From Ferrimonas sp. YFM (GTDB lineage: Bacteria > Pseudomonadota > Gammaproteobacteria > Enterobacterales > Shewanellaceae): 64,000 bases of DNA. Numbering within the stretch: the first letter of the stretch is position 1; every line of letters starts with the position of its first letter. Under the pieces are notes generated by a model. The model made no database searches and was not told the DNA's origin. It saw only the letters and a program-made list of their open reading frames with translations. The DNA lies in the NCBI RefSeq assembly GCF_030296015.1, contig NZ_AP027368.1:3768839-3832838 (forward strand), given 5' to 3'. The position numbers and the translations under genes were made by a program. Shown in pieces: positions 24,604 through 59,544 of this stretch.

Positions 24604-24915
24604 CCAAAATTCAAAGAAATAAAAAACGTGAGACTTAAAAAGATTGAGGAATATCAAAAAAGGATAAAAGTCTCCAAAAGTGACCCATAGTGACAGGCGT
24701 CACAGACAAAATGTCCCACATATTGATCCGCGAAACAGCCAATTTCAGATGTGGAAAGATACAGGTTGCCCATGGTCTGCTAACAAATTTCTTTCACTTT
24801 CAACCCCAAAAATAAGACAAAAAATATGGTTCAAGCCTAAATTACCAAAAAACCATGATTCAGATCACGACAACAGGTCGTTAACAGCAAGGGTTGTGGA
24901 TATATGTCACCAATA

Positions 24916-24929
24916 TTGATCTCGGTCAT
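24916..24929 (+). promoter_or_regulatory. FNR-like site upstream of hyaA
   Basis: TTGAT-CTCG-GTCAT has a perfect left half and a 3-of-5 right half compared with TTGAT-N4-ATCAA. It is 70-83 bases upstream of the hyaA ATG, a workable activator position for anaerobic induction of an uptake hydrogenase. Confidence 0.4.
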
Positions 24930-24998
24930 TATGTCCAACATCGAATTCCATACACTTTCCTTGGCAATCCCGTGTACCCAATGCAAGGATTAAAAAAT

Positions 24999-26138
24999 AT
25001 GGGACAGTACGACGCTTTATTCTCGCGGGGAAAAAAGCGACTTTCCGAGTTGAAGAAACTCAACGCGGTTAAGTCCACCCCGCTGATGCAACGCCTCGAG
25101 AGCCAGGGCATCTCCCGTCGGGAGTTCATGACCTGGTCCGCACAGGTAACCGCTATGCTTTCTCTGCCACTCTCCTTCAGCCCACTGGTGGCCGAAGCGG
25201 CAGAGGTCGCCGATCGTGTGCCGCTGATCTGGCTGCACATGGCCGAATGTACCGGTTGTTCCGAATCCCTGATTCGCTGTGACACCCCCTCCATCGACAG
25301 TGTCCTCTTCGACCACATCTCTGTGGAATACCATGAGACCCTGATGGCCGCCGCCGGCTGGCAGGCTGAAGAGAACCTGGAGCACGCACTGGAAGCCTAC
25401 AAAGGCGGCTATGTGCTGGCTGTAGAGGGCGCCATCCCCACCGCCGACAATGGTCACTACCTGACCGTAGGCTGTAAGGGCCACACCGGTACTGAAATCA
25501 TTCACCACGCAGCCGAAGGCGCCGCCGCCATCGTTTCCGTGGGTACCTGTGCCGCCTTCGGTGGTGTTCAGGCCGCTGCGCCAAACCCAACTGAAGCCAA
25601 GGGCGTTGACCAGGTTGTTCACAAGCCCGTTGTGAACCTGGGCGGCTGTCCCCCAAGTGAGAAGAACATCGTGGGCACCCTGATGTACTTCGTCATGTTC
25701 GGCAAGCTGCCTCCAATGGACATGTACGGCCGTCCCAAGTGGGCCTACGGCGCACGTGTTCACGACAACTGTGAGCGCCGCGGTCGTTTCGACGCCGGTG
25801 AGTTCGTCGAGAAATTTGGTGATAAAGGCGCCAAAGAGGGTTACTGCCTGTACAAGGTAGGTTGTAAGGGTCCTTATACCTACAACAACTGCCCCACCGA
25901 GCGCTTCAACCACCACACCAGCTGGCCCGTGCTGGCCGGTCACGGCTGTATCGGTTGTTCCGAGCCCAACTTCTGGGACGCCATGGCCGATTTCGAAAAA
26001 CCCCTGGGTCGCCGCGATATCCACAGCCTGGATAAGACCGCTGACTTTATCGGCACCGCCATTCTTGGCCTGTCGGTAGTAGGTCTCGGTGCCCACGCCG
26101 TAGCCGGTGTGTTTGCCAAAGATGTGGAGGATAAGTGA
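24999..26138 (+). CDS. hyaA: [NiFe]-hydrogenase small subunit
   Basis: A 379-residue electron-transfer subunit with three Fe-S clusters. A twin-arginine signal (SRREFM at residues 39-44) places it in the periplasm, and a C-terminal helix (AILGLSVVGLGAHAVAGV) anchors it to the membrane. The proximal-cluster motif is ECTGCSE and the later one is VGTCAAFGGVQAA. Glycines stand where O2-tolerant enzymes have two extra cysteines, so a standard [4Fe-4S] proximal cluster is expected. ATG 24999 with AAGGATT upstream is chosen; earlier in-frame starts would put useless residues before the Tat signal. First gene of hyaABCD. Confidence 0.96.
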   Translation: MGQYDALFSRGKKRLSELKKLNAVKSTPLMQRLESQGISRREFMTWSAQVTAMLSLPLSFSPLVAEAAEVADRVPLIWLHMAECTGCSESLIRCDTPSIDSVLFDHISVEYHETLMAAAGWQAEENLEHALEAYKGGYVLAVEGAIPTADNGHYLTVGCKGHTGTEIIHHAAEGAAAIVSVGTCAAFGGVQAAAPNPTEAKGVDQVVHKPVVNLGGCPPSEKNIVGTLMYFVMFGKLPPMDMYGRPKWAYGARVHDNCERRGRFDAGEFVEKFGDKGAKEGYCLYKVGCKGPYTYNNCPTERFNHHTSWPVLAGHGCIGCSEPNFWDAMADFEKPLGRRDIHSLDKTADFIGTAILGLSVVGLGAHAVAGVFAKDVEDK

Positions 26139-27841
26139 TGAGCAAACGTGTTGTAGTCGATCCAATCACCCGGATTGAAGGTCACCTTCGTGTCGAGGTT
26201 GAGGTCGATGAAAATAATGTCATCACCAAAGCCTGGTCCGGCTCCACCCTGTGGCGCGGCATCGAAACCATCCTGAAGGGTCGTAGCCCCATGGATGCTG
26301 GTCTGCTGGTTCAGCGTATCTGTGGTGTATGTACCTACTCCCACTACCGCTGCAGTATCGAAGCGGTAGAAGACGCTCTGGATCTGAAGATTCCTGAGAA
26401 CGCCAAGCTGCTGCGCAGCCTGATGCAGTCCTCCCTGTACATGCATGACCACGTGGTGCACTTCTACCACCTGCATGCCCTGGACTGGGTAGACATCGTC
26501 TCCGCTCTGAGCGCCGATCCTGCCAAGGCAGCCCAGGTTGCCATGAAGTACAGCGCCACCCCAATCGCCGCCGGCGAAGGTGAACTGCGCGCCGTACAGG
26601 AGCGGGTACAGGGTCTGGTTAACACCGGTAAGCTGGGTCCATTCGCTAACGCCTACTGGGGCAACGGCACCTACAAGTTCTCTCCCGAGCAGAACCTGAT
26701 CGCCGTATCCCACTACCTGAAGGCCCTGGAAGTTCAGCGTAAAGCTGCCGAGATGCTGGCCATCTTCGGTGGTAAGCAGCCTCACCCACAATCCCTGGTT
26801 GTTGGTGGCGTAAGCTGTGTTCGCGACATGCTGTCCCCAGCCCGTCTGCAAGAGTGGAAGCAGAAGCACGCCGAAGTGAACGACTTCATCAACCGTGCCT
26901 ACCTGCCTGACGTTCTGATGGCTGCCGAAGCGTACAAAGAAGAGCCTTCCGTACTGGGTGGCGTGGGCGTGAAGAACTTCATGGCCGCCGAAGACTTCTA
27001 CCTGGGCAACGGCGAGTACCTGTTCCAGCCGGGCGTGATCATGAATGGCGACCTGAGCGATGTTCAGGACGTTGATCTGACCCTGATCGAAGAAGACGTG
27101 ACTCACTCCTGGTACCAGGACGGTGCGGCCCGTCACCCCTATGATGGTGTGACCGAGCCTAACTACACCGGCCTGATCGAGCGTGACACCGTGTACGGTA
27201 AGCTGCCTACCTTCGACAACGACGGTAAGTACTCCTGGGTTAAGTCTCCTCGCTACGCCGGTGAGCCCGTCGAGGTTGGCCCTCTGTCCAGCCTGCTGGT
27301 GGCCTACGCCCGTGGTAACAAGCAAGTGGTTGGCGCCGTTAACGGTCTGCTGGAAGCCACTGGCCTGCCAGTTGAAGCTCTGTTCACCACCCTGGGCCGT
27401 ACCGCGTCCCGTCTGGTTCAGACCATGCTGGTTGCCGAGAACAGCCTGAAGACCTTCGATGCCCTGGTGAGCAACATCCTTGTTGATGAGTCCACCTACA
27501 TCGAGCCGGTTATCGATCCCAACAAAGAGTACAAGGGTGTGGGTGTGATTGAAGCACCTCGCGGCCTGCTCAGCCACTGGATCCGCATCAAGGGTGGCAA
27601 GATCGAGAACTACCAGGCTGTGGTACCCACCACCTGGAACTCCGGTCCTGTGGATGCCAACGGCAAGGTTGGTCCTTTCGAGCAGTCCCTGGTTGGCATG
27701 AAGCTGGAAGATCCTACCAAGCCTCTGGAGATCATCCGCGTCATCCACTCCTTCGACCCATGTATGGCCTGTGCCGTACACGTGATGGATTACAAAGGCC
27801 AGGATCTGGGGCAGTTCCAAGTAGCACCCAACGCCTGCTAA
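26138..27841 (+). CDS. hyaB: [NiFe]-hydrogenase large subunit
   Basis: A 567-residue catalytic subunit carrying the Ni-Fe(CN)2CO site. Ligand motifs are L1 RICGVCTYSH and L2 DPCMACAVH. The 19 residues after that His (VMDYKGQDLGQFQVAPNAC) are the C-terminal peptide removed by HyaD after nickel insertion. The subunit crosses the membrane with HyaA by the Tat route. The ATG overlaps the hyaA stop by one base (TGATG), with GGAGG upstream; a GTG one codon earlier is not preferred. Together with HyaA/HyaC it oxidises H2 and reduces the quinone pool. Confidence 0.98.
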   Translation: MSKRVVVDPITRIEGHLRVEVEVDENNVITKAWSGSTLWRGIETILKGRSPMDAGLLVQRICGVCTYSHYRCSIEAVEDALDLKIPENAKLLRSLMQSSLYMHDHVVHFYHLHALDWVDIVSALSADPAKAAQVAMKYSATPIAAGEGELRAVQERVQGLVNTGKLGPFANAYWGNGTYKFSPEQNLIAVSHYLKALEVQRKAAEMLAIFGGKQPHPQSLVVGGVSCVRDMLSPARLQEWKQKHAEVNDFINRAYLPDVLMAAEAYKEEPSVLGGVGVKNFMAAEDFYLGNGEYLFQPGVIMNGDLSDVQDVDLTLIEEDVTHSWYQDGAARHPYDGVTEPNYTGLIERDTVYGKLPTFDNDGKYSWVKSPRYAGEPVEVGPLSSLLVAYARGNKQVVGAVNGLLEATGLPVEALFTTLGRTASRLVQTMLVAENSLKTFDALVSNILVDESTYIEPVIDPNKEYKGVGVIEAPRGLLSHWIRIKGGKIENYQAVVPTTWNSGPVDANGKVGPFEQSLVGMKLEDPTKPLEIIRVIHSFDPCMACAVHVMDYKGQDLGQFQVAPNAC

Positions 27842-27850
27842 GGAGGAGCT

Positions 27851-28522
27851 ATGTCTAACAAGGTTCCACATTCAAGAGATTACATCTTCACGCCGGTGAT
27901 CCGTATCTGCCATTGGCTGCGTGCGCTCTCCATCGTGTTGCTGGTAATCTCCGGGTTCTACATCTCCTGGCCCTTTTTGGTCCAGTACGGTGGACCCGAC
28001 AACCTGATGCAAGGCTGGGTGCGCTTCGGCCACCTGGTTGCAGGTTTCATCCTTGTGGCGATCACCATCATTCGCGCCTATCTTTACTTCTTCAGCAAGA
28101 GTGATATTGAGCGGCGTTCATTTCGTGATGTGATCAGTCCCAAGAAGTGGATTGAGAACCTGATGGCCTACGGTTACATGGGCAACATGCACAAGTCCGG
28201 TGTATACGGACCCCTGCAGTACATGACCTACTTCGCACTGACCATGGTTATCGTGGTGATGTGTGTGACCGGTCTTATCCTGCACGCCCATGTGTATCAC
28301 GAAGGACTGGGTGGTGCCTTTATGCCCATCGCCGAAGCCCTGATTCCGATGTTCGGAACCCTGGCCTTTGTGCGTGAGCTGCACCACTTCCTGACCTGGG
28401 TATTTGTCATCTTCATGGTTATCCATGTATACATGGCTGTATTCAGTGGCATCCGCTTCAAGCACAACTCTGTGGATTCCATTGTGTCCGGTTATGACTA
28501 CCACCCAATGAAGCACAAGTAA
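27851..28522 (+). CDS. hyaC: Hydrogenase b-type cytochrome subunit
   Basis: A 223-residue integral membrane diheme cytochrome b. It has four to five TM helices with heme-ligand histidines in VIRICHWLRALSIVLLVISG, WVRFGHLVAG and VRELHHFLTWVFVIFMVIHVY. It passes electrons from HyaA to quinone. GGAGGAGCT precedes the ATG. Downstream of hyaB by 9 bases. Confidence 0.95.
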   Translation: MSNKVPHSRDYIFTPVIRICHWLRALSIVLLVISGFYISWPFLVQYGGPDNLMQGWVRFGHLVAGFILVAITIIRAYLYFFSKSDIERRSFRDVISPKKWIENLMAYGYMGNMHKSGVYGPLQYMTYFALTMVIVVMCVTGLILHAHVYHEGLGGAFMPIAEALIPMFGTLAFVRELHHFLTWVFVIFMVIHVYMAVFSGIRFKHNSVDSIVSGYDYHPMKHK

Positions 28523-28527
28523 TCGAT

Positions 28528-29064
28528 ATGCCAGAAAAAATCCTCATTCTGGGGATTGGCAATGTACTGTACGCCGATGAAGGCATCGGCGTACATTTTG
28601 CCAACTACTTCCAGAAAGCTTACAAATTCGAGGGGCAACCTCAGTTGGAATTCATGGACGGCGGCACTCTGGCCAACGCACTGATTCCTCTGATTGCCCC
28701 TTATGACCATCTAGTGGTGGTCGACACCATCAACTCAGCGAACGCCAACTACGGCGACGTCTTCTTCTTCGACTTTGACCGGGCCCCCGCCGAGGTGGAC
28801 TGGCAAGGCAGCGCCCACGAAGTGGAGATGCTGCAAACCCTGAACATGATGGACATGGTGGGCGACAGGCCCAAGACCTATGTCCTGGGTGTGGTGCCCA
28901 CCGTCCTGGAGTCCATGAGCTTCGAGCTTACCGACCAGGTCAAAGGCGCTGTACCTACCATGGAGAAAGCCCTGGTTGGTCATCTGGAGACCCTGGGGAT
29001 CCGCGCCACCAAGGTGAAGGATCTCGACATCCAGGCCCTGGCCCACCAATCCTGCGACACCTAA
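28528..29064 (+). CDS. hyaD: Hydrogenase maturation protease HyaD
   Basis: A 178-residue nickel-dependent endopeptidase of the HupD/HybD family. It has the start LILGIGNVLYADEGIGVH, whose Glu binds the nickel probe, and VVVDTINSANANYGDVF with the conserved Asp. It removes the C-terminal peptide of HyaB once nickel is in place. It lies 5 bases after hyaC and 11 before the next gene, so it is part of the operon. Confidence 0.95.
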   Translation: MPEKILILGIGNVLYADEGIGVHFANYFQKAYKFEGQPQLEFMDGGTLANALIPLIAPYDHLVVVDTINSANANYGDVFFFDFDRAPAEVDWQGSAHEVEMLQTLNMMDMVGDRPKTYVLGVVPTVLESMSFELTDQVKGAVPTMEKALVGHLETLGIRATKVKDLDIQALAHQSCDT

Positions 29065-29075
29065 GGACCCCAGCC

Positions 29076-30752
29076 ATGAAGCTGAAGTTTAACTTCCATT
29101 GCGACCGTCCGGTCCCCTACTACGCTCATCGCTGCAACCAGCTGCTGACCCACCCCCAGGTACTCACCACAGGCAAAGCCGACAACACCTACTTCTTCAT
29201 CGCCGAGGGCGATCAGGAACAGTTGTCGGAGCTGGCCGAACAGGTGGGCCAGGAGTGGTCTCTCTCCTGCTGGCTGGAGCGCAGTGAACTGCTTCCGGTT
29301 GAGGAGCTCGAGGGCGACGACCACGCCCTGGCTCATGGCCCGGTTCACAACCCCTACTGTGGCTACTGCCGTGACCACCTGCAGCCCTGCCAACACTGCG
29401 GCAGTGAGGCTCAGCCCAGCCTGGACAGCGACCAGTTGCAGCAGGCCGTGGACACCTTCCTGGCCAAGGGCCAGTGCACCCTGGCCACCGGCAGCGGCCT
29501 GCGCCGCTTCCGTCGCCTCGGCGACATTCAGCCCAGTCAGCTGATGTTCTGCCGCGCCGAAGCCCTGAACTCTGCCCTGCACCTATCCAACCAGGGGGTG
29601 CGCCTGCTGAGCAGCCTGGAGAAACCCATGCTGCAACTGCTGCCCAAGGCGGAGTTTGCCAAGGCCAACAAGCTGGCGCACATCACCTATCTGTGCCACC
29701 TGGCCGACGACAGGATCTCTCTGCGCCTGGCCCAGAAACTGGCCGATGCCGGTGTGGAGCTGGTGGCCGTCGAAGAGGTGGAGCCTACGCCTAAGCTGGT
29801 GCTCACCTTCCTCGAAGAGAAGCCCCTGGCCCTGAGCCACCGCCGCCAGCCGGCCGACCTGCCCTGCCCCGAAGCGCCCCTGTGGGATGACGCGGTGATC
29901 GGCGGCTATCGCGCCGAAGTGGACGACGGCAAGCTGACCCTGAGCGAAGATGGTCGTCAGAACATCAACAACCGCTGGGCCGCCGCCTGTGCCCATCACG
30001 GTGCCAAGCTGTTCGCTCCCAAGGGCACCACCACCGCCACCCTCTACCTGAGTGGCAGCCGCCCCTCGGGCCTGATCCATCAGGACGACAAGGGTGAGTA
30101 TCAGTGGCTGGTGAAGCTGCCGGAGCAGTGGATCGCGCCAAACCAGATCCTCAGCACCATCGCCGAAGGCGCCGAGACCGGTGAACGCCTGGTGGCCCGC
30201 TTCCGCGAGCTGCATCCTGAGCGTGCCGCCACCCTGGACGCCATGAGCGACGCCCCCATCAGTGGCAACCTGTCCAGCCTGATGGCCCTGGTGGCCTGGT
30301 TGCTGCAAGTGGCCGAGCCCGGGGACGACCGCCTCACCGCCGCCCGCAAGTTCACCGCCCTGGCCCTGGGCCATGACGGTAAGAACAGCCCCCGCATCGA
30401 CTTCAAGCTCAAGCGTGACGACGATGAGGTGCTGACGGTGCAGGCCCACAAGGCGCTGCAGGCAGCGCTCAGCTACGCCATGGCCGATGAGAATAGCATC
30501 CAGGCCACCTGCTACGGCCTGGTGGACTCCTTCGCCGACTTCGTCGCCAACTGGGTGGAGCAACTGGATGCGGACGTGGGCATCGATCAGCTGGCCCTGG
30601 CCGGGGATGAGTTTGCCTCTCCGGCGCTGATGGATCGCATCCATCGTCGCCTGGGCAACAACTTCCACCTGATGTGGCCCGAGGCGCTGGACTTTGACGG
30701 CTCCAACCTGGCCGCCGGTGGTCTGTTCCTCAAGCGCAGGAAGCGTGCATGA
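29076..30752 (+). CDS. Probable degenerate HypF paralogue, hydrogenase-associated
   Basis: A 558-residue protein that I do not recognise as a named family but that appears collinear with its neighbour HypF. The C-terminus LALAGDEFASPALMDRIHRR, then HLMWPEALDFDGSNLAAGGLF, lines up with HypF's MVLSGGVMMNRCLLERLQ, then WLWPERTAVNDGSIAQGQLW. SGNLSSLMALVAWLLQVAEP parallels SSSMGRLFDAMACFLQLCRE. Residues 1-75 look like a shortened acylphosphatase fold. One CX2C-X6-CX2C knuckle (Cys 95, 98, 105, 108) replaces HypF's zinc-finger pair. Residues about 115-235 resemble the YrdC part. The acylphosphatase Arg, the HHHAH metal motif and the DGTG motif of HypF are absent. It overlaps hypF by 4 bases (ATGA). 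Suggested role: non-catalytic partner of HypF or a HyaB-specific assembly factor. The homology was judged by eye. Confidence 0.7.
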   Translation: MKLKFNFHCDRPVPYYAHRCNQLLTHPQVLTTGKADNTYFFIAEGDQEQLSELAEQVGQEWSLSCWLERSELLPVEELEGDDHALAHGPVHNPYCGYCRDHLQPCQHCGSEAQPSLDSDQLQQAVDTFLAKGQCTLATGSGLRRFRRLGDIQPSQLMFCRAEALNSALHLSNQGVRLLSSLEKPMLQLLPKAEFAKANKLAHITYLCHLADDRISLRLAQKLADAGVELVAVEEVEPTPKLVLTFLEEKPLALSHRRQPADLPCPEAPLWDDAVIGGYRAEVDDGKLTLSEDGRQNINNRWAAACAHHGAKLFAPKGTTTATLYLSGSRPSGLIHQDDKGEYQWLVKLPEQWIAPNQILSTIAEGAETGERLVARFRELHPERAATLDAMSDAPISGNLSSLMALVAWLLQVAEPGDDRLTAARKFTALALGHDGKNSPRIDFKLKRDDDEVLTVQAHKALQAALSYAMADENSIQATCYGLVDSFADFVANWVEQLDADVGIDQLALAGDEFASPALMDRIHRRLGNNFHLMWPEALDFDGSNLAAGGLFLKRRKRA

Positions 30753-33025
30753 GTCTGAGGCGCCAGCACTACCAGATCCTTGGTACGGTACAAGGGGTCG
30801 GCTTCCGACCCTTTGTCTACCGCCACGCCACGGACAACGCCCTGACCGGAAATGTCCTCAATGACGCCAACGGCGTCGCCATCGAGGTGCAGGGCACCAC
30901 GGCACAGCTGGCCGCGTTTGAAGACGCCATGCGCAACCAACTCCCGCCTCTGGCCAAGGTCGATCACCTGTCCATCGAGGATCACCCCATCGATCTGGAT
31001 GAGGCGGAGTTCATAATTCTGGAAAGCAGCGGCAAGCAGGATGCCCAGGTGGCCCTGGCCACCGACAAAGCCAGTTGCGACGACTGTCTCAACGACATCC
31101 GCAACCCTGACAGCCGCTACTTCAACTACCCCTTTACCAACTGCACCAATTGCGGCCCCAGGTACACCATCATCCGCGACCTGCCCTACGACAGGCCCAA
31201 TACGGCCATGGCAGGCTTCAAGATGTGCCCCGAGTGTGCCAAGGAGTACAAGGATCCCCTCAACCGGCGCTACCACGCCCAGCCAGTCAGTTGTCCCCAC
31301 TGCGGACCCCAACTGACCTGGCGCAAGGCCAATGGTCAGCCGCTGACGGTCACCGATCCCCTGGCCCACTGCTGCAGCCAGTTGGCCAAAGGCAAGATCA
31401 TCGCCATCAAGGGGCTGGGGGGCTATCACCTGATGTGTGACGCCACCAGTGACCTGGCGGTGGACACCCTGAGGCGGCGCAAACGCCGCCCCGCCAAACC
31501 CCTGGCGGTGATGGTCAAAGACCGTGCCACCGCCGAGACTCTGGTCAGGGGCGATACCGAGGAGTGGGACACCCTCTGCTCCCAGGAGCGTCCCATAACC
31601 CTGATGCGCACCCTGGGCAGCGACACGCTGGCCCCGTCTGTGGCACCGGGGATCGATCGCCTGGGACTGTTTCTGCCCTACACCCCCATCCATCAGCTGC
31701 TGCTGGAACGGCTGGACCGGCCGCTGGTGGCCACCAGTGCCAACCTCTCCGGCGAGCCGGTGATCACCGAGCTCAGCCAACTGGTGGACAAACTGGGTCA
31801 TGTGGTGGACGGCATCCTGGATCACGACAGGCCCATACTCAACGCCTGCGACGACTCCGTGGTGCAGGTGGTCGGCGGCCAGACCCAGTGGTGGCGTCTG
31901 GCCCGTGGGGTTGCCCCTCAGACCGAGCGCCTGGACAACGAAGCCCAGCTCACCACCCTGGCGGTGGGGGCCCAGCAGAAGAACCGCCTGGCCCTGGCCT
32001 TTGGCCAGAGGGCGATCACCAGTCCCCACATCGGCGATCTGGATAACCTGGCCACCGAGGGCTACTTCGAGCACACCCTGGCCCAGCTGCAGCGGATCTA
32101 CGACCTCAAGGTGGAGCGGCTGGTGACCGACCTGCACCCAGGCTATGGCTCCAGTCAGTGGGCCCAGAACCTGGCTCAGCGACGGGAACTGCCCCTGCTG
32201 CAGGTGCAACATCATCACGCCCACATCCTGGCGGTGATGGCGGAGCACAAACGCACCGACAAGGTGCTGGGATTTGCCTTCGACGGAACCGGCCTGGGCG
32301 ACGACGGTCAGATGTGGGGTGGCGAAGTGATGCTGGCCGACACCCAGGGCTACACCCGGCTGCACTACGTCAAACCCTTCCGCCTGATTGGCGGGGAACA
32401 GGCGATCAAGCACCCGGTACGGGTGGCCCTCTCCCTGATGTTCCAGCACTACTCCCTAGAGGAGGTGCAGGCCAGTGGCTGGCCTCAGAAGTTCGGCATC
32501 AAGGATATGGCCCTGAAGAACATGCACCTGATGTGGCAGCGGGGGATCAACGCCCCCTACTCCAGCTCCATGGGCCGCCTGTTCGACGCCATGGCTTGCT
32601 TCCTGCAATTGTGCCGGGAGACCGACTTCGACGGTCAGGCCGGGATGCTGCTAGAAGCCGCCGCCGAGCAGTGCCAGGACAGCGAGGTCAACCTGCTGAG
32701 CCTGCCCGCCAGCATCGGCCCCATTATCGATACCGCCCCCCTGGTGCATCAGATGATGACCCTGGGGCACAGCAAGCTGGACACCGCCACCTGGGCCCGG
32801 GCCTTCATCAACGCCGTTGCCCAGATGATGGTCAGCCTGATGGAACGCTACCCGGACTACCCCATGGTGCTCAGTGGCGGCGTCATGATGAACCGTTGCC
32901 TGCTGGAGCGCCTGCAGGCCACCATGGGCGATCACCAGGCCCGCTGGCTCTGGCCCGAGCGCACCGCCGTCAATGACGGCAGCATCGCCCAGGGGCAGCT
33001 CTGGTATGCCCTAAACCAGGAGTAA
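30749..33025 (+). CDS. hypF: Carbamoyltransferase HypF
   Basis: A 758-residue enzyme that turns carbamoyl phosphate into the thiocarboxamide on HypE, the source of the cyanide ligands of [NiFe] sites. Domains in order: acylphosphatase (VQGVGFRPFVYRHA, about 10-90); paired zinc fingers (CDDCLND, CTNCGPRYT, CPECAKEY, CPHCGP); a YrdC-like adenylation domain (KGLGGYHLMCDA, RRRKRRPAKPLAVM); and a Kae1-like carbamoyltransferase domain (QHHHAHILAVMAEH, AFDGTGLGDDG, LSGGVMMNRCLL). All hallmark residues are present, unlike in the paralogue upstream. Last gene of the hya operon; a GC-rich hairpin without T run follows at about 33032-33055. Confidence 0.97.
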   Translation: MSLRRQHYQILGTVQGVGFRPFVYRHATDNALTGNVLNDANGVAIEVQGTTAQLAAFEDAMRNQLPPLAKVDHLSIEDHPIDLDEAEFIILESSGKQDAQVALATDKASCDDCLNDIRNPDSRYFNYPFTNCTNCGPRYTIIRDLPYDRPNTAMAGFKMCPECAKEYKDPLNRRYHAQPVSCPHCGPQLTWRKANGQPLTVTDPLAHCCSQLAKGKIIAIKGLGGYHLMCDATSDLAVDTLRRRKRRPAKPLAVMVKDRATAETLVRGDTEEWDTLCSQERPITLMRTLGSDTLAPSVAPGIDRLGLFLPYTPIHQLLLERLDRPLVATSANLSGEPVITELSQLVDKLGHVVDGILDHDRPILNACDDSVVQVVGGQTQWWRLARGVAPQTERLDNEAQLTTLAVGAQQKNRLALAFGQRAITSPHIGDLDNLATEGYFEHTLAQLQRIYDLKVERLVTDLHPGYGSSQWAQNLAQRRELPLLQVQHHHAHILAVMAEHKRTDKVLGFAFDGTGLGDDGQMWGGEVMLADTQGYTRLHYVKPFRLIGGEQAIKHPVRVALSLMFQHYSLEEVQASGWPQKFGIKDMALKNMHLMWQRGINAPYSSSMGRLFDAMACFLQLCRETDFDGQAGMLLEAAAEQCQDSEVNLLSLPASIGPIIDTAPLVHQMMTLGHSKLDTATWARAFINAVAQMMVSLMERYPDYPMVLSGGVMMNRCLLERLQATMGDHQARWLWPERTAVNDGSIAQGQLWYALNQE

Positions 33026-33174: not shown

Positions 33175-33417
33175 ATGTGTTTATCCATTCCCTCTCAGGT
33201 GGTAGAACTGCACCCTGAAGACACCACCGCCACCGTCGACACCATGGGCGTAACCCGCAGGGTGAGTACTCACCTGATCAGCGAGCCCCTGAACGTGGGC
33301 GATTATGTGCTGATCCACGTCGGCTTCGCCATGAACAAGATCGATGAGGAAGCGGCCAAGGAGAGCCTCGAGCTCTACAAAGAGATTGTCGAAAAGATGG
33401 AGGCGGAAGATGTCTGA
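33175..33417 (+). CDS. hypC: Hydrogenase assembly chaperone HypC
   Basis: An 80-residue HypC with the essential N-terminal Cys2 (MCLSIPSQVVEL) and the family core GDYVLIHVGFAMNKIDEEAA. It partners HypD to assemble Fe(CN)2CO and hands it to the large subunit. Its stop overlaps the hypD start by 8 bases (ATGTCTGA). Confidence 0.96.
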   Translation: MCLSIPSQVVELHPEDTTATVDTMGVTRRVSTHLISEPLNVGDYVLIHVGFAMNKIDEEAAKESLELYKEIVEKMEAEDV

Positions 33418-34537
33418 TCTGGCCCTGAAGGATCTCTATCAGGGATTTCGGGACCCGGAGACCATCAAGGCGCTGCTGAAGCAGATTGCCGACAAGGCCC
33501 CCGGCCTGAAGGAACCCCTGAAGATCATGGAGGTGTGCGGCGGCCACACCCACAGCATCATGAAATACGGCATCCACCAGGCACTGCCGGACAACATCGA
33601 ATTTATCCACGGCCCTGGCTGCCCCGTGTGCGTCATGCCCAAAGAGCGCATCGACCAGGCGATCGCCCTGGCCCAGCAGCCTGACGTGATTCTGACTACC
33701 CTGGGTGACATGATCCGGGTGCCCGGCTCCAAATCCAGCCTGGCCCAGGCCCGTGCCCAGGGCGCCGACGTGCGCCCCCTGTACGACCCCATGGACGCGG
33801 TGAAGCTGGCCCAGGAAAACCCGGACAAGACGGTGATCTATTTCGCCATCGGCTTCGAAACCACCACCCCGATGACTGCGGTACTGGTGCAGATGGCAGA
33901 CCAGCTGGGGCTGACCAACCTGCTGCTGCACGTCAACCATGTTCTGGTACCACCTGCGGTGCACGCGGTGATGGCGGACGGCCAGGCCAAGGTCAACGCC
34001 TTCATCGGCCCCTCCCACGTCAGCGTGATCACCGGCGCCAAGGTGTACCAGCCCATCGTCGACGCCTACCAGACGCCGGTTGTGGTCTCAGGCTTCGAGC
34101 CTGTGGACGTGCTGGAAGCGGTGCTGATGCTGGTGGAGCAGAAACTGGCGGACAAGGCGGAGCTGGAGATCCAGTACACCCGTGCCGTGACCATCGATGG
34201 CAACACAGGTGCCCAGGCGATGGTGGACAAGTACCTGGCGGTGCGCCCCGAGTTCCGCTGGCGCGGCCTGGGCAATATCCCCAACTCCGCCCTGGGGCTC
34301 TCCCCGGACTACCCGCACCTCAATGCCGAGATCAAGTTCAAGGATATCCTGCCCAGCGAAGAGCTGGACGACCACAAGGCCTGCATGTGCGGCGATATCC
34401 TCAAGGGTCTGGCCAAGCCCACCGACTGTAAGGTGTTCGGCCGCGGCTGCACCCCGCAAACCCCGATGGGCAGCTGCATGGTCAGCTCAGAGGGCGCCTG
34501 TCACGCCCACTTTAAGTACGGAGAAGTGATTCTATGA
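33410..34537 (+). CDS. hypD: Hydrogenase maturation protein HypD
   Basis: A 375-residue [4Fe-4S] scaffold on which the Fe(CN)2CO unit is built with HypC. Motifs: MEVCGGHTHSIMKYG, HGPGCPVCVMPKERID, and the C-terminal cluster cysteines in KACMCGDILKGLAKP, GRGCTPQTPMGSCMVSSEGAC. The start MSDLALKDLYQGF at 33410 is chosen for overlap with hypC and AGGCGGAAG upstream; a longer frame starting inside hypC is not credible. Confidence 0.97.
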   Translation: MSDLALKDLYQGFRDPETIKALLKQIADKAPGLKEPLKIMEVCGGHTHSIMKYGIHQALPDNIEFIHGPGCPVCVMPKERIDQAIALAQQPDVILTTLGDMIRVPGSKSSLAQARAQGADVRPLYDPMDAVKLAQENPDKTVIYFAIGFETTTPMTAVLVQMADQLGLTNLLLHVNHVLVPPAVHAVMADGQAKVNAFIGPSHVSVITGAKVYQPIVDAYQTPVVVSGFEPVDVLEAVLMLVEQKLADKAELEIQYTRAVTIDGNTGAQAMVDKYLAVRPEFRWRGLGNIPNSALGLSPDYPHLNAEIKFKDILPSEELDDHKACMCGDILKGLAKPTDCKVFGRGCTPQTPMGSCMVSSEGACHAHFKYGEVIL

Positions 34538-35541
34538 CCGCCACCGACAACAAACGCCGCATTCAACTGAGCCACGGTGGCGGTGGTGTCGAGATGAACC
34601 AGCTGATTCGTAAGCTGTTCTTCAAGTACTTCAGCAACGAGATCCTGATCCGGGACGAAGACGCCGCCCGGCTGGATATCCAGGGCCCCCTGGCGTTTAC
34701 CACCGACAGCTTCACCGTCAGCCCCCGCCAGTTCAAGGGAGGCGATCTGGGTAAGATCGCCGTGGCCGGCACGGTCAATGACCTGGCCATGGCCGGCGCC
34801 ATCCCCCAGTATCTGAGCTGCGGCTTCATCATCGAAGAGGGTCTTACCTTCGCCGAGCTGGAGACCCTGGTGAAATCCATGGCTGAGGAGCTGGAGAAGA
34901 GCGGAGCCCGCATCGTCTGCGGCGACACCAAGGTGGTGCCCAAGGGCGCCGCCGACGGCATCTTCATCAACACCTCGGGTGTGGGCCAGTGCATCGCCAA
35001 CCCCTCCTGGAAGAAACTGGAGGTGGGCGACGCCATCCTGGTCTCCCGGGACGTCGGCCGCCACGGCGCCTGCATCCTGGCCAGTCGTGAAGGGATGGCC
35101 CTGGAGGGGGATCTCGCCTCCGACTGCGCCACCCTGTGGGACGACGTCAAGCGCCTGCTGGACGCCGGCATCGAGGTGCGCGCCATGCGCGACGCCACCC
35201 GGGGCGGTCTGGCCGCGGTACTCAACGAGTGGGCCGCCAGCCGCGAGCTGGGGATCAAGGTCGAACAGGATCAGGTGCCCATCGCCGACGAGGTGCAGGG
35301 GCTGTGTGAACTGTTTGGCTTCGAACCCATGGAGCTGGCCAACGAGGGCACCTTTGTCCTCGGCGTCCCCGCGGATCAGGCGGAACAGGCCCTGGCCCTG
35401 CTGAAACAGGGGCAGGAGAGCGCCGCCATCATTGGCACCGTGGTGGAGCAGCACGTGGGTAAGGTGGTCCTCACCTCTCCCTGGGGCAGCCAGCGTTACC
35501 TGGAGCTGCCCAAAGGGGAACTGCTGCCGCGGATCTGCTAA
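34534..35541 (+). CDS. hypE: Hydrogenase maturation protein HypE
   Basis: A 335-residue AIR-synthase-like enzyme that dehydrates the carbamoylated C-terminal cysteine to thiocyanate. It has the glycine-rich start LSHGGGGVEMNQLI, FTTDSFTVSPRQFKGGDLGKIAV, and the required C-terminal PRIC ending in Cys. It overlaps hypD by 4 bases (ATGA). The neighbouring hypAB genes normally found in such clusters are missing here and lie at 58-59.5 kb. Confidence 0.97.
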   Translation: MTATDNKRRIQLSHGGGGVEMNQLIRKLFFKYFSNEILIRDEDAARLDIQGPLAFTTDSFTVSPRQFKGGDLGKIAVAGTVNDLAMAGAIPQYLSCGFIIEEGLTFAELETLVKSMAEELEKSGARIVCGDTKVVPKGAADGIFINTSGVGQCIANPSWKKLEVGDAILVSRDVGRHGACILASREGMALEGDLASDCATLWDDVKRLLDAGIEVRAMRDATRGGLAAVLNEWAASRELGIKVEQDQVPIADEVQGLCELFGFEPMELANEGTFVLGVPADQAEQALALLKQGQESAAIIGTVVEQHVGKVVLTSPWGSQRYLELPKGELLPRIC

Positions 35542-58021: not shown

Positions 58022-59200
58022 TTAACGCTGCTTCTGCAGCCAGTCTATCCACTCATCCATCCCCTCGCCGGTGGTGGCTGAGGTGCAAATCACCTGGATG
58101 TCCGGATTCACCTTGCGGGCGTTGTCGATGCAGGCCTGAACATCGAAGTTCAGGTGAGGCAGCAGATCCACCTTGTTCACCAGCATCAGGTTGGAGGCGG
58201 CAAACATATCGGGGTACTTGAGGGGTTTATCCTCCCCTTCAGTGACGGACAGAATGGCCACCTTATGGCGCTCACCCAGATCGAAGCCCGCCGGGCACAC
58301 CAGGTTACCCACGTTCTCGATGATCACCAGCTCGCCCTGGTCCAGATCCAGTCTGTCACAGGCAGAGCCGATCATCGCCGCGTCCAGGTGACACCCCTTG
58401 CCGGTATTGACCTGAATGGCACGAACACCGGTCTCGCGGATGCGGTCTGCATCGTTGGCGGTCTCCTGATCCCCTTCGATCACCACCACCTTGTCATCGG
58501 CCAGGCGACGACAGGTCTCGGTCAGCAGGGTCGTTTTGCCTGAGCCTGGGCTGGAGACCAGGTTCACCACCAGTTGGTTCGCCTGATGAAAGCGCTTGCG
58601 GTTTTCGGCGGCGATGGCGTCGTTTTTGCCCAGGATATCCTGCTCAATCTGCACCATACGCGCCTGGGACATGCCAGGCGCATGGGCATGGGCCGGGCCC
58701 TGACCGTAATGGAGGTTGTCGCCCTGATGTTCCGGGGCAAAGGCCTCGGCCTTATCTTCATGATGATGGTGATGACCATGGTCATGAGAATGGCCATGAT
58801 CATGGCTATGGCCGTGCTCATGGCTGTGGCTATGTCCATGGCTATGACTGTGGCCGTGACCATGACTCTGCTGTCGAGTCGCTTCACCCTGGATATGGTA
58901 GTGGTAGTGGTGCTCTACATTACCCTGATGGTGATAATGGTGGTGGATGATGGTCGGCTCAGGCGTGGCATGATGAGCATGGCCGTGGTGATGATCATGA
59001 GCATGGCTGTGATCATGACTATGGCCATGGCTGTGGTCATGGCTGTGGTCATGGCTGTGGGCGTGGCTGTGGCCATGCTCATGAGTATGACCGTGGTCAT
59101 GGCTGTGGCCATGCCCGTGGTGATGGTGGTGACCGTGGTCATGGCTATGACCCTGTTCGATCTTTACATTGCCTTCGGCACAGCCGCATACGGTACACAT
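58022..59200 (-). CDS. hypB: Hydrogenase nickel incorporation GTPase HypB, His-rich
   Basis: A 392-residue GTPase that inserts nickel into hydrogenase; E. coli HypB has 290. The N-terminal metal site MCTVCGC (Cys 2, 5, 7) is present. Residues 18-147 contain 63 histidines in HSHDHGH-type repeats, a nickel storage/delivery tail. The G domain follows: P-loop [11 protein letters not shown] (about 216), metal-site GCHLDA and CPAGFDLGE, and [11 protein letters not shown] 59200 is preferred because it gives the Cys-rich start; the frame runs 56 codons further into hypA. Two bases after the hypA stop. It is far from the other hyp genes of the window. Confidence 0.95.
58760..59152. repeat. Imperfect CATGGC-type microsatellite tract in hypB
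   Basis: About 390 bases of degenerate hexamer-like repeats (GGCCATG/GTCATGG variants on the plus strand) encoding the His-rich insert. The tract has two blocks separated by a less regular stretch ([19 protein letters not shown]). Such DNA is prone to slippage, so length may vary between strains. Confidence 0.8.
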
Positions 59201-59202
59201 GG

Positions 59203-59544
59203 TTACTCTACCTCTAATGATTTGACTCGCATCTGGGTGCCGCCCACTACCTGCAGGGAGTATCCGCTGCATTTGGGGCAGGGCTGCCCACGCCGTGACA
59301 GGGGAACCTCCACGGCACAATCGAAACAGTAGGCGGTGCCGGGCACCGACTCGATGGAAAGGCTGCACCCTTCAGCCAGGGTGTCTCGGGTGATCACATC
59401 AAAGCTGAATTCCAGGGCTTCCAGTTCAACCCCGGCCAGTTCCCCAACCTCGAGGCACACCTCTTTCACCTTGGTGAACTGCTGTTTCTGGGCCTCACTT
59501 TCCAGGATCTGTACTATCCCTTCGGCCAGTGACATTTCGTGCAT
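59203..59544 (-). CDS. hypA: Hydrogenase nickel incorporation protein HypA
   Basis: A 113-residue metallochaperone. [15 protein letters not shown] has the nickel-binding His2, and the zinc site is [20 protein letters not shown]. It docks HypB and transfers nickel to the large subunit. First gene of the hypAB operon; the 172 bases upstream to the iscX terminator should hold its promoter, but I see no clear FNR site. Confidence 0.97.

Follow-up and report, generated by a model that had tools for sequence, protein, structure and literature searches.

A HypF-fold protein without the HypF catalytic motifs, encoded between hyaD and hypF in a Ferrimonas [NiFe]-hydrogenase cluster

The cluster and its 558-residue open reading frame

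The window, by which we mean the whole 64,000-nucleotide stretch of Ferrimonas sp. YFM DNA that was analysed, contains a [NiFe]-hydrogenase cluster in the order hyaABCD-X-hypF-hypC-hypD-hypE, all on the forward strand. X is our shorthand for a 558-residue open reading frame (29076–30752) and for its family. The hydrogenase itself is encoded by hyaA, for the small subunit (24894–26138; Pfam NiFe_hyd_SSU_C, E = 2e-32, and Oxidored_q6, 1.1e-27; start codon uncertain), hyaB, for the large subunit (26135–27841; NiFeSe_Hases, 1.9e-212), and hyaC, for the cytochrome b subunit (27851–28522; Ni_hydr_CYTB, 1.2e-24), and is followed by the maturation protease gene hyaD (28528–29064; HycI, 1.6e-26). HyaB is about 51% identical to large subunits encoded on plasmids of Sulfurovum and Sulfurimonas. 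X begins 11 bases behind hyaD and is a complete gene without an internal stop; the closest named match, from Ferrimonas futtsuensis, is 95% identical over X. X, described earlier as translationally coupled to an intact hypF, shares the four bases ATGA (30749–30752) at its end with the hypF start.

The neighbouring hypF (30749–33025) encodes an intact carbamoyltransferase that scores 765.8 bits with TIGR00143 (cut-off 466.1), and the catalytic motifs are conserved in the 20 HypF proteins that we aligned (alignment A2), the one from the window included. Behind it lie hypC (33175–33417; HupF_HypC, 5.2e-27), hypD (33410–34537; HypD, 4.7e-150) and hypE (34534–35541; AIRS, 8.7e-19, and AIRS_C, 7.6e-27). 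HypF synthesises carbamoyl-AMP and donates its carbamoyl group to HypE; the cyanide ligands from HypE are assembled on HypC–HypD and delivered to the large subunit. Scans for promoters and terminators returned sites no more numerous than in shuffled sequence. A hypB-like open reading frame with a very long histidine-rich region ahead of its GTPase part lies some 22 kb away from the hyp genes on the reverse strand (58022–59368; TIGR00073, 297 bits), and elsewhere the same genome has another hypB match that exceeds the cut-off.

Fold, domains and conserved residues of X

Pairwise, the likeness between X and HypF is slight. BLASTP against the neighbouring HypF gave 19 identities in 96 positions (E = 0.025), Pfam HypF_C_2 matched residues 406–548 at E = 2.2e-4 (21.5 bits, below the Pfam cut-off of 27), and the HypF family model TIGR00143 reached 11.2 bits (E = 0.073) against its curated cut-off of 466.1. 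As a single query X had no sequence match in the PDB up to E = 10, and among plasmids its three matches were all at chance level (E = 6). No relative was found in the viral contigs searched. We therefore worked with three alignments: A1, with 25 rows of X, one for each genome with X among 60 related genomes; A2; and A3, in which 22 X proteins, sharing rows with A1, were combined with two relatives from Campylobacterota described below (24 rows). All 25 members of A1 matched HypF_C_2 at E of 1 or less (best 1.3e-9), so the C-terminal similarity to HypF proposed in the preliminary description is real, if weak in pairwise comparison. Aligned by hhalign, the A1 profile was collinear with that of HypF (E = 2.2e-9, score 84.4, profile columns 115–574), and the A3 profile matched over nearly the whole length (E = 3.1e-15, score 131.4, columns 40–588). 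Column-shuffled controls, 20 per profile, scored at most 24.2, and control comparisons with a HyaB profile only 16.2 and 16.9. Searched against the PDB, the A3 profile had HypF sequences as its four best matches (3vth at 1.5e-15). The A1 profile alone reached only 0.053, so part of the A3 signal is owed to the two Campylobacterota rows, whose HypF fingers are clear.

An AlphaFold model of X, made without templates, was obtained with a pLDDT of 91.6 and a pTM of 0.88. In a Foldseek search with this model the nine top PDB matches were all HypF chains (E = 1.1e-18 to 1.3e-14), with TM scores by query of 0.52–0.68 over 569–787 alignment columns; the tenth was a chain of the TsaBDE complex (4.6e-7), and TsaD/Kae1 proteins followed from there on. 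The rmsd to HypF was large (6.1–10.5), which may reflect shifts between domains. Taken together, profiles and model show that X has the fold of HypF over its whole length and, one finger apart, appears to keep its domain order, and the earlier proposal of a whole-length degenerate HypF relative between hyaD and hypF is borne out both by structure prediction and by profile comparison. X shares with HypF one zinc site and the HypF_C_2-like C-terminus; it differs in being 200 residues shorter than its neighbour (558 against 758) and in lacking HHxAH, the QGVGF loop and one finger. With the TsaD/Kae1 proteins it has in common the Kae1-like fold of its C-terminal half, but no histidine column of X is conserved at 90% and its context is a hydrogenase, not tRNA modification.

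The domain borders within X are approximate. Residues 1–75 (29076–29300) form an acylphosphatase-like alpha/beta domain, with the order strand-helix-strand-strand-helix-strand in the model and without the QGVGF loop. A single four-cysteine site follows (C95, C98, C105 and C108; 29358–29399), corresponding to one of the two HypF fingers and kept in 25/25 rows of A1 and 24/24 of A3, in agreement with the reported loss of one zinc finger. At about residues 118–235 (29427–29780) hhalign places a YrdC-like remnant against the YrdC region of HypF. It carries an E182-K183-P184 motif, in which E182 and P184 are present in all 24 rows of A3 and K183 in 22. The Kae1-like C-terminal region, whose start is approximate, spans about residues 270–558 (29883–30749) and contains the HypF_C_2 match.

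Since the MAFFT alignment was poor in the YrdC and HHxAH regions, motifs were also counted without alignment. GVGFR was found in none of the 49 rows of A1 and A3, which overlap, as against 19 of 20 HypF proteins, and HHxAH likewise in 0/49 as against 20/20, in keeping with the loss of HHHAH noted before. Histidine columns conserved at 90% or more number eight in A2 and none in X. Two further losses had been claimed, and each holds in part. The glycines of DGTG are gone but the aligned aspartate, D337, is kept in 23/25 rows; the QGVGF loop is gone but an arginine near the position of the acylphosphatase arginine, R11, is kept in 20/25. As R11 and D337 remain, ligand binding by X is still conceivable.

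Other residues are invariant in the 24 rows of A3, among them E182, P184, D442, S485, D488, G510 and G548. As judged from sequence, these point to a kept function of X's own. In three pairs compared, dN/dS was 0.091, 0.14 and 0.067 for X and 0.046, 0.089 and 0.079 for hypF, showing that X is under purifying selection.

Occurrence with HyaB and order of the genes

Among the 60 related genomes X occurs in 25, in each case without a stop within the match. The same 25 genomes, and no others, have a HyaB of at least 75% identity, and X is absent from the other 35. Five of these 35 have weaker HyaB matches only (at most 49% identity across the greater part of HyaB, or short fragments); one of them, G044, has two such matches and no X. 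Across 394 genomes of the order, X was matched at E = 1.4e-106 or better in 30, two of them outside the family, and 29 of the 30 matches contain no internal stop. A TAG lies within the match of G332 (L064 and L093), and next to this match we found no hyp genes. Matches of this strength among the 369 genomes of the class sample and the 398 of the phylum sample were X members already known. Weaker matches in these samples were set aside: those of G466, G479, G812 and G822 are HypF or stand-alone HypF C-terminal parts, and the remainder are frames of 750–859 residues judged to be HypF by length only. Two more distant genomes of the phylum carry a HypF C-terminal part on the reverse strand (L129, 7832–9532; L128, 7735–8967), where it either stands alone (410 residues) or is fused behind an N-terminus that by eye resembles a hydrogenase protease (566 residues).

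HyaE and HyaF (HupG and HupH) are, like X, accessory proteins encoded with hydrogenase structural genes. X belongs to other families; PF07449 and PF04809 are absent among its Pfam matches up to E = 10. The preliminary description took both proteins to be missing. For HyaF this stands, as the 25 X-bearing genomes gave no HupH_C match and just two of the 60 did (G044 and G051), both of which lack X and carry other hydrogenases. For HyaE the claim needs qualifying. The sole strong match is in G044 (101.6 bits), but matches over the cut-off of 22 bits occur in 21/60 genomes, with and without X, including that of the window (24.9 bits, far from the X cluster). None except G044 exceeds 26.6 bits, most lie in frames of about 300 residues, and we read these weak matches as thioredoxin-like proteins. 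As the two genomes with HupH_C have other hydrogenases, the earlier suggestion that X takes the place of HyaE/HyaF is no more than a possibility.

We examined gene order at 42 loci (the window, 24 and 17 others). hyaD lies directly before X in all 42. Downstream of X the arrangement varies: hypF follows directly in 29 loci and hypC then hypF in eight; two have hypC without an adjacent hypF (L047 and L085), and in three neither was found behind X (L045, L084 and L093). Three loci of a genus denoted g2, which is probably Shewanella, have a tandem hyaABC-hyaABCD arrangement in which two hyaABC sets share one hyaD-X (L086, L089 and L090). In two Ferrimonas genomes there is another hyaABC set with neither hyaD nor X beside it, X being located elsewhere in the genome (L107 and L108).

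Protein identities were compared for 38 of the 42 loci, the hypF of the other four lying outside the stretch. These comprise the window's group (six loci), a second Ferrimonas-side group (nine) and genus g2 (23). HypF of the window's group has a mean identity of 37.8% to that of the other Ferrimonas-side group and 48.3% to that of g2. In the same comparison the values were 39.9 and 27.9 for X, 79.7 and 77.0 for HyaB, and 62.1 and 58.9 for HyaD. Thus HypF, but not X, HyaB or HyaD, looks to have been exchanged between the Ferrimonas-side groups, a reading taken from mean identities. The two HypF types on the Ferrimonas side, about 38% identical, are found in L044 and L046–L053 on the one hand and in the window, L031–L034 and L054 on the other, beside hydrogenase genes that are alike. 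Distance correlations showed no preference for HyaB over HypF as the co-evolving partner of X (partial r of 0.53 and 0.54).

Probable relationship to HydE and possible roles of X

A Sulfurovum mangrovi plasmid encodes a hydrogenase whose HyaB is about 51% identical to that of the window, with a 641-residue 'hypothetical protein' encoded behind hyaD and two small open reading frames ahead of hypF. This protein matches zf-HYPF over the cut-off (8.8e-14) and TIGR00143 at 1.5e-24, far below the equivalog cut-off, and hhalign aligns it with the X profile at E = 3.1e-17. The hypF of the same plasmid (L106, 20027–22268) is annotated as two open reading frames, one with the acylphosphatase and one finger and the other with the remainder. 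On a Sulfurimonas paralvinellae plasmid we found a further 641-residue relative, 41% identical to that of Sulfurovum (zf-HYPF, 6.7e-15). It sits between hyaC and hypF, following hyaC rather than hyaD and overlapping hypF. Both relatives keep the Pfam HypF fingers and so link X to HypF. X therefore belongs to a HypF-derived family that accompanies this type of hydrogenase in two phyla. The earlier suggestion of gene duplication followed by conversion to a pseudo-enzyme is thereby divided: a HypF-derived pseudo-enzyme is the best reading, whereas a recent origin by duplication of the adjacent hypF is ruled out by the Campylobacterota relatives.

The position of X is that of hydE in the hydABCDE operons of the Helicobacter pylori and Wolinella type, after the gene for the D protease, as seen in 42/42 loci and in Sulfurovum, and the Sulfurovum protein at the hydE place matches the X family profile. 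The HydE meant here is not the radical-SAM HydE of [FeFe]-hydrogenases. From the operon place and the two Campylobacterota relatives, X and H. pylori hydE (HP0635) are probably the same gene, even though the two relatives keep zf-HYPF fingers and the Ferrimonas-side proteins keep a single, altered four-cysteine site. Excerpts of two papers describe H. pylori hydE as needed for hydrogenase activity (PMC7695850, PMC3120642). In those of PMC7695850 the phenotype is confined to hydrogenase and is not repaired by nickel, and mutants in hydE and in hypF do not behave alike in biofilm tests; a table gives HydE a part in localizing the complex at the membrane, and the discussion calls the function of hydE unknown. 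If X and hydE are the same gene, a described phenotype therefore exists for a protein to which the preliminary description could attach no described function. Searches of an open-access library, in which most subscription papers are missing, turned up no statement on a relationship between HydE and HypF, and excerpts of a survey of gene neighbourhoods around [NiFe]-hydrogenases (PMC12727194) made no mention of one. For S. oneidensis, part of PMC7784907 identifies SO_2096 as hyaD, and in excerpts of PMC2262068 one table writes the operon as so2099-5 and a second as so2099-7; going by the numbering and the order of the genes, X would be SO_2095. As a Sulfurimonas hydrogenase is called group 1b in part of PMC10066037, X may go with group 1b hydrogenases.

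Overall, we favour, at a probability of roughly 0.55, the reading that X is a dead HypF relative serving as a HydE-type maturation factor, which docks HypE (or HypC–HypD) and directs delivery of Fe(CN)2CO to its hydrogenase. Lacking the catalytic parts, X would be unable to make or transfer carbamoyl-AMP. Because it keeps the HypF body, it would still hold HypE or the HypC–HypD scaffold, so that X may serve as a docking scaffold, either in the HypF step or beyond it, and bring Fe(CN)2CO to HyaB, the large subunit in its apo form. Such a role would account for a phenotype that affects hydrogenase only and that nickel does not repair. It fits the association of X with hyaABCD, as opposed to any single type of HypF, and the absence of X from relatives with other hydrogenases. 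Several observations count against it: the biofilm difference between H. pylori hydE and hypF mutants, in the excerpts of PMC7695850, lends no support to a shared step; hypF directly downstream in 29/42 loci would equally suit a partner of HypF; the distance correlations give HyaB no preference over HypF; the Sulfurimonas gene sits behind hyaC, which departs from the hydE position; R11 and D337 leave ligand binding conceivable; and there are hyaABC sets with no X adjacent (L107 and L108).

The main rival, which we regard as unlikely by comparison, is that X and intact HypF form a mixed complex in which X, as a pseudo-enzyme subunit, tunes or speeds carbamoyl transfer to HypE. The shared HypF body would suit such a complex, as would the overlap of X with hypF and the position of hypF directly downstream, both in those 29 loci and in the Sulfurimonas cluster. 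However, hypF is not adjacent in 13/42 loci, in five of which it is not behind hypC either, and X is paired with HypF types that are only about 38% identical. G044, with its two weaker HyaB matches, has no copy of X, and the dissimilar biofilm behaviour of H. pylori hydE and hypF mutants (excerpts of PMC7695850) weighs against a mixed complex as well.

It is improbable that X acts as a later-stage chaperone, on the small subunit, subunit joining or membrane placement, with the HypF fold as scaffold only. Its place after hyaABCD in all 42 loci would agree with this, and so would the tabulated part of HydE in membrane localization, but the same paper's discussion calls the function unknown (excerpts of PMC7695850) and the fold, as modelled, is that of the Fe-ligand enzyme. 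Still less probable is recruitment of the fold to catalyse a different reaction at a new active site, which might lie around the invariant aspartates and serine of the C-terminal region; invariant non-cysteine residues in 24/24 rows favour such an enzyme, but there is no conserved histidine and none of the HypF motifs searched for is kept in the X family. A decaying hypF copy without function, for which the lost catalytic motifs and the TAG in G332 might be cited, is refuted by the low dN/dS (0.067–0.14), by residue conservation with matches free of stops in 25/25 and 29/30 genomes, and by co-occurrence with HyaB in 25/25.

If the docking reading is extended to the family, a class of dead HypF relatives in two phyla may act as specificity factors that decide which hydrogenase receives Fe(CN)2CO, the HypF body being reused as an adaptor between HypE or HypC–HypD and one type of large subunit; this would supply the missing function of HydE, and we advance it tentatively. 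Seeing HydE as a HypF-fold protein that lacks the catalytic parts yields a specific proposal for the step that it serves, one that can be tested in laboratory bacteria such as Shewanella. X would also be a pseudo-enzyme of metal-cofactor assembly that has remained beside its client in different phyla, while HypF, the active enzyme, has apparently been exchanged.
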